Positions 10,834-58,521 of a stretch of DNA of 64,000 nt are shown here, one piece after another. Source of the stretch: Methanobrevibacter sp. YE315 (lineage in GTDB: Archaea > Methanobacteriota > Methanobacteria > Methanobacteriales > Methanobacteriaceae); NCBI RefSeq assembly GCF_001548675.1, contig NZ_CP010834.1, positions 1,213,501-1,277,500 of the forward strand, given 5' to 3'. Under the pieces are notes generated by a model. That model was given only the letters and a program-made list of their open reading frames with translations, ran no database searches and was not told where the DNA came from. Positions within the stretch are counted from its first letter, which is position 1. Each line of letters opens with the position of its first letter. The position numbers and the translations under genes were made by a program.

Positions 10834-11520
10834 TTAGTCTTTGTCGAGTGCAGGAATTCCTGTAATTCTTAAACCACCATAATGGGATTTGTATTTAATG
10901 TTTAATCCAATTAACAATGGGGTGATTTTTTCAATGATTCTTGCTTTTTCAAGAATACCTGTGTCGATTGTTTTTATACCAGGTATTTTGTCGATGATTT
11001 CTGCTGCGATTTCTTTTGCTTCTTTGTCATCACCTGCAATTAAACAGTCACAGTCGATTTCTTCTGGGATGTTTGAGAGGTGTGAGTTTGAAATGTTACA
11101 GAATGCGCAAATTACTTTTGCACCGGTGCCTTCAAGAATCTTAGCGGTTCTTTCAGCAGCGGATCCTTCCATTAGGTCAACGAATCTGAATGGTTTTCCA
11201 CCAATAGCTGTTTCTAATGGTACTGTTGCATCCATGACTATTTTGTCAGTACAGAATTCTTTGATTCCTTCAACAGTAGGTTTTTGTGCAGCTAAAGGTA
11301 CTGTGAGGATTAATACATCTCCTGCTTTTGCAGCATCTTCGTTTGCCATTCCAACCATGTTTAAGTCATAGTCTGCTAATTCTTCTTTAGCTTTTGCAAC
11401 AACGTCTAATGCTTTTTCTTCTTTTCTGGAACCGACAATTACTTCAACACCAGCAATAGCTAATCTTTCTGCAATTCCAAGTCCTTGTGGTCCTGTTCCA
11501 CCTATTACACTTACAATCAT
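10834..11520 (-). CDS. npdG: F420-dependent NADP oxidoreductase, copy 1
   Basis: The N-terminal GGTGPQG (residues 7-13) binds NADP, and SRKEE after the second strand fits NADP preference. Length 228 matches Fno/NpdG, which moves hydride between reduced F420 and NADP+. A second copy at 57847-58521 is almost identical: I count only Ile2/Lys2 and one Thr/Cys change before the last few residues diverge. The DNA differs at many synonymous sites. This copy has a longer tail (PALDKD). It lies eight bases after a DUF2284 gene and just before the Sau3AI-like gene. Confidence 0.95.
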   Translation of the reverse strand: MIVSVIGGTGPQGLGIAERLAIAGVEVIVGSRKEEKALDVVAKAKEELADYDLNMVGMANEDAAKAGDVLILTVPLAAQKPTVEGIKEFCTDKIVMDATVPLETAIGGKPFRFVDLMEGSAAERTAKILEGTGAKVICAFCNISNSHLSNIPEEIDCDCLIAGDDKEAKEIAAEIIDKIPGIKTIDTGILEKARIIEKITPLLIGLNIKYKSHYGGLRITGIPALDKD

Positions 11521-50503: not shown

Positions 50504-50586
50504 GTTTTAACTTAAATCCTAAAACTAGGAAAAAATAGATTTTGAATAAAAAATATTTAAAAAAAAGAATTAATTAAGGAAGCAAC

Positions 50587-52167
50587 ATGTACGAACTAGT
50601 CGACCAAATTATAAACATAGATTTTGAGGAATTGTCCACTTTTGACTTTCCAATCGATTATCGCTTTGGATTATGCGTGAACTTAAGAGGAACAAAATAC
50701 GAATTTCTAGTCCATTTTAAGAGCAACACCGACAAAGTCATCTGTTTAGGTGCAGGAGCCATGGGTAATCATTCAAAGCATGATACCAGAAGACCATTTT
50801 TCCACAGGCACGGTTGGAAATTCGATGCATCCTCAATTTGGTACAATGACCCTACACGCTACTTGAACTTAAAATCAAAAGGTTCATGGGGCGTTGGAAC
50901 AACCGATGAATACTTTTTAGAAAACATAGGAATAATCGTCGTTAAACTTATATCCCGCTTGGATTTGAAACAGGAAAATCTAATTTTCTATGGAAGTTCA
51001 ATGGGCGGTTTCACTTCACTTCAACTGGCAACACTGGTTAGGGATTCTACCGCACTTGCAGACATCCCCCAGTTGGAATTCCAGAATCATGTTAGCTATG
51101 AAAGAGTTAAGCCATACTGTTTTCCAGGACTAAGCGATGAGGAAATTTGGGATAGATTCAAACATAGGTTTGATGTTATCGAACTGATGAAAAAAGAAAA
51201 TTACATCCCAAAAGCAACAATCATATTCAACTGCAGCAATAGGGACATCAACACCCAATATCTGGACTTCATAAAAAAAACCAATGAACTTCCAAAAATC
51301 GAAAATAAAAGCAACCATATAAAAATCGTGTTTAATTACATTGACGCCCATAAACCGTTGGGCAGTCCTGAAAGTAGGATGCTGGCAAATGGAATAACAT
51401 CTAAAAATATGATGGCCTATTACGATGAGCTTGAAGACTCAGAAATGTATCAGGAAAACCAGCGATTAAAAGCCCAAGTAAACCAAAACTGCAACACAAA
51501 ACACCTAATAAAAGACTGCTTATTCCAAGACGGCAAATTCTACAACCACTACAACCGTATCATAATCGACAATGAAGGAACAATGAGTTGTAATGTAAGT
51601 TCCGCTGGATTCTACCTCGCAGACAAAACCGGAACCGCAACCAATCTAACACAATGCCTACAATACACACCACCATTCAGCTTCGAATTCGACGTCGAAA
51701 ACCCATACGGAAACGCATTCATACATGTAACAAACGGAACAACAACAGTCAACAAGAAATTCCAGATAGTATCACAGAACAAGAAATCCTATCATGTAAA
51801 AGTCGAAGTCCTAACCGACCGCATCAACTACTATGTTGATAATGTCTACAAATCAGATTTAACCTGGACAGGAACATTCACAGGCAACCTCCGTATCGGA
51901 TTCAGATTAAACGATGGAAGTAGCATGCGATTCGACAACTTTATCATCTACTCTATGAGTACTGTTCCAGGAGCACCAGAAAGTGTTACATTATCAAGTG
52001 ATAAGAGTGTATTGTCTTATTATGATAATGAGTCTGCTACTGTCCTGTATCAGGAAAACCAGCGATTAAAAGCCCAAGTAAACACATTGCTTTCATCAAA
52101 TTCATGGAAGATTACAAAACCTCTTAGAAAAATAGGTTCAATACTAAGAAAATACCTTAAAAAATAA
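50587..52167 (+). CDS. Asp2-like alpha/beta hydrolase with inserted beta domain and coiled tail
   Basis: Residues 50-290 are an alpha/beta hydrolase: nucleophile Ser138 in YGSSMGG, an acid in IFNCSNRDIN and His in YIDAHKPLGS. A 13-residue YQENQRLKAQVN segment follows at about residue 287. A 180-residue region with FSFEFDVENPYGNAF and LRIGFRLNDGSS (LamG/concanavalin-like) comes next, then the same YQENQRLKAQVN at about 487, and a C-terminal SWKITKPLRKIG tail found in glycosyltransferases of surface-glycan clusters. The role is probably in surface glycan modification. Confidence 0.65.
   Translation: MYELVDQIINIDFEELSTFDFPIDYRFGLCVNLRGTKYEFLVHFKSNTDKVICLGAGAMGNHSKHDTRRPFFHRHGWKFDASSIWYNDPTRYLNLKSKGSWGVGTTDEYFLENIGIIVVKLISRLDLKQENLIFYGSSMGGFTSLQLATLVRDSTALADIPQLEFQNHVSYERVKPYCFPGLSDEEIWDRFKHRFDVIELMKKENYIPKATIIFNCSNRDINTQYLDFIKKTNELPKIENKSNHIKIVFNYIDAHKPLGSPESRMLANGITSKNMMAYYDELEDSEMYQENQRLKAQVNQNCNTKHLIKDCLFQDGKFYNHYNRIIIDNEGTMSCNVSSAGFYLADKTGTATNLTQCLQYTPPFSFEFDVENPYGNAFIHVTNGTTTVNKKFQIVSQNKKSYHVKVEVLTDRINYYVDNVYKSDLTWTGTFTGNLRIGFRLNDGSSMRFDNFIIYSMSTVPGAPESVTLSSDKSVLSYYDNESATVLYQENQRLKAQVNTLLSSNSWKITKPLRKIGSILRKYLKK
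51446..51483 (+). repeat. 38-bp direct repeat, left copy
   Basis: The 38 bases from 51446 to 51483, starting tgtatcagg and ending caagtaaac, recur exactly at 52046-52083, exactly 600 bases away and in frame. They encode the YQENQRLKAQVN coil in both places and flank the inserted beta domain. Confidence 0.95.
52046..52083 (+). repeat. 38-bp direct repeat, right copy
   Basis: Exact second copy of the repeat at 51446-51483. The upstream codons also match weakly (YYD in both), and bases just outside the repeat differ. The domain between the copies uses noticeably more C-ending codons than the flanks. Confidence 0.95.
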
Positions 52168-52171
52168 TTTT

Positions 52172-57846: not shown

Positions 57847-58521
57847 TTAAAATTTAATTCCAGTAATTCTTAAACCACCATAATGGGATTTGTATTTAAT
57901 GTTTAATCCAATTAATAATGGAGTGATTTTCTCGATTATTCTTGCTTTTTCAAGTATTCCACAGTCGATTGTCTTAATTCCAGGAATCTTGTCAATTATT
58001 TCTGCTGCGATTTCTTTTGCTTCCTTGTCATCACCTGCAATCAAACAGTCACAGTCGATTTCTTCCGGGATGTTTGAGAGGTGTGAGTTTGAAATGTTAC
58101 AGAATGCGCAGATTACTTTTGCACCAGTACCTTCAAGAATCTTAGCGGTTCTTTCAGCAGCTGATCCTTCCATTAGGTCAACGAATCTGAATGGTTTTCC
58201 GCCAATTGCGGTTTCTAATGGTACTGTTGCATCCATGACTATTTTGTCTGTACAGAATTCTTTGATTCCTTCAACAGTAGGTTTTTGAGCGGCTAAAGGT
58301 ACTGTGAGGATTAATACATCTCCTGCTTTTGCAGCATCTTCGTTTGCCATTCCAACCATATTTAAATCATAGTCTGCTAATTCTTCTTTAGCTTTTGCAA
58401 CAACATCCAATGCTTTTTCTTCTTTTCTGGAACCAACAATTACTTCAACACCAGCAATAGCCAATCTTTCTGCGATTCCAAGTCCTTGTGGACCTGTTCC
58501 GCCGATAACACTAACCTTCAT
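57847..58521 (-). CDS. npdG: F420-dependent NADP oxidoreductase, copy 2
   Basis: The ATG at 58521 follows a GGTGAT ribosome site, so I prefer it to the GTG at 58530. The 224-residue product is nearly identical to the protein at 10834-11520, differing at Lys2, one Cys for Thr, and at the last residues (ITGIKF). It lies 63 bases after the alcohol dehydrogenase 2 gene, which makes NADPH, but a hairpin and T-run intervene. Expected to transfer that hydride to F420. Confidence 0.95.
   Translation of the reverse strand: MKVSVIGGTGPQGLGIAERLAIAGVEVIVGSRKEEKALDVVAKAKEELADYDLNMVGMANEDAAKAGDVLILTVPLAAQKPTVEGIKEFCTDKIVMDATVPLETAIGGKPFRFVDLMEGSAAERTAKILEGTGAKVICAFCNISNSHLSNIPEEIDCDCLIAGDDKEAKEIAAEIIDKIPGIKTIDCGILEKARIIEKITPLLIGLNIKYKSHYGGLRITGIKF

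Follow-up and report, generated by a model that had tools for sequence, protein, structure and literature searches.

In Methanobrevibacter sp. YE315, a gene for a probable surface-glycan-modifying enzyme carries a 562-bp insert between two exact copies of a 38-bp sequence, in the middle of what is elsewhere a continuous hydrolase-coil-tail protein. The arrangement probably arose once, when illegitimate repair or template switching brought in a fragment of a virus-type adhesin; "viral" here denotes a sequence like those in the tail genes of viruses and proviruses. The gene lies in a 64-kb stretch of DNA (64,000 nt), here called the window, and its parts, numbered from the first letter of that stretch, are the following.

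50587 to 52167 (stop codon included), plus strand: intact ORF encoding hydrolase, coil, insert, coil and tail; hydrolase and tail are continuous in the homologue L004
50587 to 51444, plus strand: alpha/beta-hydrolase domain, SacC/XcbB-CpsF-like by profile, fold and residue conservation
51446 to 51483, plus strand: 38-bp repeat (coil codons), left copy, adjoining the ancestral hydrolase without a break
51484 to 52045, plus strand: insert, 562 bp, absent from all hydrolase homologues found
51484 to 51519, plus strand: QNCNTKHLIKDC codons, matching the point where an Ig-like strand ends in viral adhesins (MNLQETYSIEDC), by profile alignment from aa 304 and by the inverted repeats in L084 and L166
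51520 to 51954, plus strand: concanavalin/LamG-like beta module, by virus-only profiles and a fold nearest to CBM66
51955 to 52044, plus strand: linker and first 21 residues of an Ig-like domain, ending at the right repeat, by Ig profile
52046 to 52083, plus strand: 38-bp repeat, right copy, adjoining the ancestral tail without a break
52084 to 52164, plus strand: C-terminal tail TLLSSNSWKITKPLRKIGSILRKYLKK, common to many surface-glycan enzymes of the genus

The repeat, TGTATCAGGAAAACCAGCGATTAAAAGCCCAAGTAAAC, is 100% identical in its two copies, which are spaced by 600 nt, and reads (M/L)-YQENQRLKAQVN in frame in both, within one ORF of 526 aa; the original prediction had given the same positions, exact identity and in-frame spacing. 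An exact 38-mer pair is expected by chance in 64 kb at about 3e-14. This pair is the sole local exact repeat of at least 24 nt in the window, and the other exact repeats of that size come from two paralogous genes at 10.9-11.5 and 57.9-58.5 kb. There, positions 10862-11461 and 57863-58462 share exact runs of up to 68 nt, 47 kb apart and in register; they are a recent paralogous pair, and the copy near 58 kb looks like an F420-dependent NADP reductase. Searching other genes of the same genome for the 38-bp sequence, a check proposed with the prediction, returned no third copy in the 2.27-Mb genome (one contig). Two exact, in-frame direct repeats at a distance of 600 bp could also point to an on-off architecture, in which some members of the population lose the module by recombination between the 38-mers and forms of 526 and 326 aa coexist, both of which would be open. 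Such a deletion is one-way and would represent loss rather than switching; this interpretation is highly improbable.

Strong support for an insertion comes from a homologue with an empty site. L004, from the congener G036, is a 329-aa ORF whose hydrolase is 79-80% identical to the YE315 protein and runs directly into coil and tail (MFRENNYLKLENQRLQAEINTLFNSKSWKITKPLRK, with the SWKITKPLRK tail), with no beta domain between them. When the window flanks are joined through a single 38-mer, they align with L004 over the full length, with 739 of 1002 columns identical and one 21-nt gap, equal to one coil heptad, in the repeat region. More distant hydrolase-coil-tail genes that likewise have no such domain number at least six (L006, L010/L122, L021, L114, L121 and L143). 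Congener genomes were sampled at one per species, and the nearest empty-site relative is about 80% identical. On the strength of these alignments, the left copy is assigned to the hydrolase side and the right copy to the tail side, and the 562 bp between them are judged foreign. The prediction that a hydrolase-coil-tail gene had taken up a domain and had its coil sequence duplicated in the process is thus strongly supported, and the domain-less versions that it had suggested looking for do exist; none of the relatives found carries the LamG-like domain. As observations that would count against it, the same prediction had named a uniform full-length architecture in all relatives and a lack of other repeat copies; the former is not what is seen, and the latter is.

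The geometry is that of a target-site-duplicating insertion, with an exact direct repeat on both flanks and a single copy in L004. The true duplication would be slightly shorter than 38 bp if junction bases were shared. The same geometry resembles that left by a mobile element with a long target-site duplication, or by the remnant of one, but the insert is coding, adhesin-type sequence and has no second copy, and this origin is extremely improbable. A transposable element proper was rejected in the absence of a transposase, convincing terminal inverted repeats (best 10/15) and a second copy. CRISPR-type integration by Cas1 was also considered, given a duplication of about CRISPR-repeat length, but CRISPR spacers are far shorter than 562 bp and the insert is far too long to be one. 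A possible AQV microhomology between the coil and the Ig end (L042/L085) was set aside because it is one residue out of register.

The inserted sequence resembles part of a tail adhesin. A profile built solely from virus and provirus sequences detects a LamG-like domain at aa 304-456 (1e-4), and its LamG-subset counterpart matches aa 318-456 at 6e-7. A virus-only Ig-like profile aligns its positions 2-22 with aa 466-486 (6.5e-5), and the match ends exactly at the right repeat; all these E-values assume a nominal database of 10,000 sequences. Taken together, these matches indicate that the insert consists of an Ig-strand end (QNCNTKHLIKDC, of which the first few codons were matched by eye), a LamG module and a following Ig-like domain of which only residues 1 to 21 are present. 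The insert is therefore not a clean domain, being cut mid-domain at the edge of the right repeat, a feature absent from the original prediction. It was modelled separately because the hydrolase-guided full-length model left it out, and the resulting model has a mean pLDDT of 56, with a core of about 58-82. Its best fold matches in the PDB are CBM66 carbohydrate-binding modules (5e-6), followed by other concanavalin-like folds, and in BFVD it matches viral tail and lectin proteins. The top match, CBM66 of Bacillus subtilis (PDB 4b1l, 4b1m, 4azz), differs from the insert in sharing only 13-15% identity, at a TM-score of about 0.5 to a low-confidence model, and a carbohydrate-binding site in the insert is putative. 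The label "LamG-like" given at the outset is borne out by profile and by a beta-sandwich fold, the latter in a low-confidence model, with scores below the Pfam cutoffs.

Close relatives of the insert are lacking. Its LamG relatives are only about 20-29% identical, and no donor with DNA-level similarity was found in viral contigs, INPHARED, congener genomes or 151 genomes of the order. The YE315 genome has no further LamG module of this type, two other adhesin queries in the scans returned no relatives, and the full protein used as query against genome contigs gave no match in the first scan. Because no DNA-level donor was found, the donor may have been a cellular adhesin rather than a virus.

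Among 67 congeners, several relatives of the insert occupy proviral tail contexts. Those in L083, L087, L088 and L166 (the last being IMG/VR contig IMGVR_UViG_3300032038_000522) have tail genes as neighbours, tape-measure and baseplate genes among them; by PHROGs, a neighbour is a tape-measure protein at L087, L088 and L166 and a baseplate wedge at L083. The Ig-LamG tail-adhesin modules of Methanobrevibacter proviruses and of the IMG/VR contig (L083, L084, L085, L087, L088 and L166) show the same order as the insert, namely Ig end, LamG and Ig start. The insert differs from them in having no Ig core and no tail-gene context, and in lying within a host enzyme. It was therefore not classed as a viral tail-adhesin cassette: its location is a host gene, and only its relatives occupy tail loci with inverted repeats.

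In L083, L084, L087 and L166, codons resembling (M)xLQETYxIEDC lie in inverted repeats (45 nt at 78%, 37 nt at 81%, 96 nt at 86% and 36 nt at 89%, respectively) that surround LamG ORFs on opposite strands. The cassettes span 3632-5646 in L166, 76-2083 in L083, 5070-5967 in L084 and 6727-7922 in L087, with the repeats at LQETYSIEDC codons, and L166 holds four LamG-type cassettes. Judged from their sequence, they look like invertible receptor-binding modules, whose expected anatomy they display. The halovirus phiCh1 carries an invertible tail-fibre module (PMC8651126 and its reference 72), an earlier instance of an archaeal tailed virus whose receptor-binding cassettes recombine. That system differs in belonging to a halovirus, and it is not known to have passed into a host gene; the Methanobrevibacter cassettes are likened to it by anatomy. 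Ig-like domains have also been reported to be enriched in gut archaeal viruses (PMC12134362).

The insert starts at codons equivalent to those in the viral inverted repeats. This may be a coincidence, and the position is also a natural domain edge. Together with the similar repeat lengths (36-37 nt in L084 and L166), it raises the idea that a viral invertase, acting on the inverted repeats located at LQETYSIEDC codons of an adhesin cassette, mis-joined the cassette to a similar-looking site within the host coil. Both junction copies are identical host sequence, whereas conservative site-specific recombination at unlike sites would leave hybrid junctions and is therefore disfavoured; in addition, the right edge is not a cassette boundary and no recombinase was identified. 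Such mis-joining is accordingly very unlikely. A broader proposal, that the invertible receptor-binding cassettes of Methanobrevibacter viruses repeatedly supply glycan-binding modules to the surface-glycan enzymes of their hosts, with entry at cassette boundaries, is quite unlikely; if true, virus adhesin variation would feed the evolution of host glycan enzymes.

Codon choice also sets the insert apart. In two-fold pyrimidine codons, C-ending and T-ending forms stand at 44:13 in the LamG part against 38:47 in the hydrolase (Fisher p = 1.3e-4) and 115:222 in five neighbouring genes (p = 1e-9 against the LamG part), which agrees with the different codon choice noted originally. The final 84 nt of the insert, comprising the linker and the Ig-like start, show 0:5, opposite to the LamG part, indicating that the insert is not homogeneous.

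The receiving enzyme had been described as an Asp2-like hydrolase. Asp2, of the accessory Sec system, has a hydrolase-like fold in a glycan context, but no Asp2 family match was obtained in Pfam or NCBIfam, and the matches fall instead on XcbB/CpsF and SacC. The family profile A2 matches NCBIfam XcbB/CpsF (NF033892) for 7 of 8 members, at best with 2.6e-5, a match that scores 18 against 125 bits and so lies far below the NCBIfam curated cutoff. SacC is the best PDB match of this profile (4.1e-5) and is ranked first by Foldseek for the well-modelled hydrolase domain (2e-7). S138 (in GSSMGG), D220 and H255 are invariant in the family alignment and would form the probable catalytic triad, in keeping with an alpha/beta-hydrolase fold with nucleophile, acid and histidine. 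SacC, the capsule O-acetyltransferase of Neisseria meningitidis serogroup A (PDB 6yuo, 6yuq, 6yus), has the same alpha/beta-hydrolase core and Ser-Asp-His residues; the YE315 hydrolase differs in being archaeal, in sharing about 15% identity and in its added coil, LamG insert and tail. The enzyme is better called SacC/XcbB-CpsF-like, a relative of capsule O-acetyltransferases, than Asp2-like. It probably acts as an O-acyltransferase or esterase on a surface glycan, and its closest homologue lies in a surface-glycan cluster (L089).

In YE315 the gene stands alone, with cobM on one side and a metE-like gene on the other. The gap between these two genes in congeners measures from 9 bp to about 630 bp and contains no hydrolase, and in some congeners it is occupied by a small, unrelated ORF whose start is zinc-ribbon-like (L092, L093, L097). 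The hydrolase-less junctions suggest that the whole gene was probably gained at the YE315 site, and the junction (window positions 50504-52171) is a possible cargo spot.

The coil and an SxSWK(I/V)TxPLR tail are common to many otherwise unrelated surface-glycan enzymes of the genus (L010, L015-L018, L025-L032). Tail-bearing enzymes include several glycosyltransferase types, a methyltransferase, a CDP-glycerol-type transferase, a pyruvyl-transferase-like ORF and the YE315 hydrolase, and the shared segment is possibly a docking tail. Among hydrolase homologues, the modules after or near the coil include a beta module (L019, L029, L113) and a methyltransferase (L174), and in L175 a beta module is common to the hydrolase homologue and a neighbouring LicD-like ORF; this module has no detectable homology to the insert. 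The sequence after the coil is thus variable across the enzyme family, being the tail, other beta modules or a methyltransferase. Such variability, and the wide occurrence of coil and tail, would suit homologous recombination with coil DNA as a recurrent exchange point, whereby the LamG module came from another coil-bearing gene through crossovers in the coil. Against this, the YE315 genome offers neither another 38-mer nor a second coil-tail gene, the tail at 52084-52164 being the only one there; no coil gene with this LamG occurs in 151 genomes of the order; and the right edge falls inside an Ig-like domain, not at the coil. Exchange by coil crossovers is therefore unlikely. The suggestion of a modular swap site among surface-glycan genes survives in part: post-coil modules do vary, but a 38-mer-specific site is not supported by a single case with no other copies and no donor.

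Capture by repair would account for the structure as follows. The ancestor would have been a surface-glycan-modifying enzyme composed of hydrolase, short coil and SWKITKPLR tail. In the YE315 lineage, a 562-bp virus-type tail-adhesin fragment, running from an Ig-like strand end through a whole LamG-like module and 21 residues into the Ig-like domain that follows, would have been captured in frame within the coil codons, and up to 38 bp of the target would have been duplicated. The event would most likely have been illegitimate repair or replication with templated insertion, either through a template switch into adhesin DNA and a return 38 bp upstream, or through staggered-break fill-in with capture of a fragment. 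These routes would explain everything with the fewest assumptions. Three points weigh against this account: no DNA-level donor was found, the LamG relatives are only about 20-29% identical, and 38 bp is a long duplication for simple end joining. A direct viral donor would likewise be a supposition of this account. Orientation and frame are kept at both ends, which has a chance of about 1 in 18 and points to a product that cells at least tolerated and that may have been selected. The LamG module may have been retained as a glycan-binding module of the enzyme.

A literature search of partial coverage found no report of such a host fusion. The gene is a clear single case in which protein parts of virus and host have become mixed; it does not represent a new kind of system. 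With both flanks, an empty-site homologue, a duplicated target and a cut donor domain all visible, it is an unusually readable domain insertion. In this gene an adhesin module of virus type is joined to a surface-glycan enzyme of the host, which suggests one way in which receptor-binding domains may become enzyme-associated glycan-binding domains in gut methanogens.
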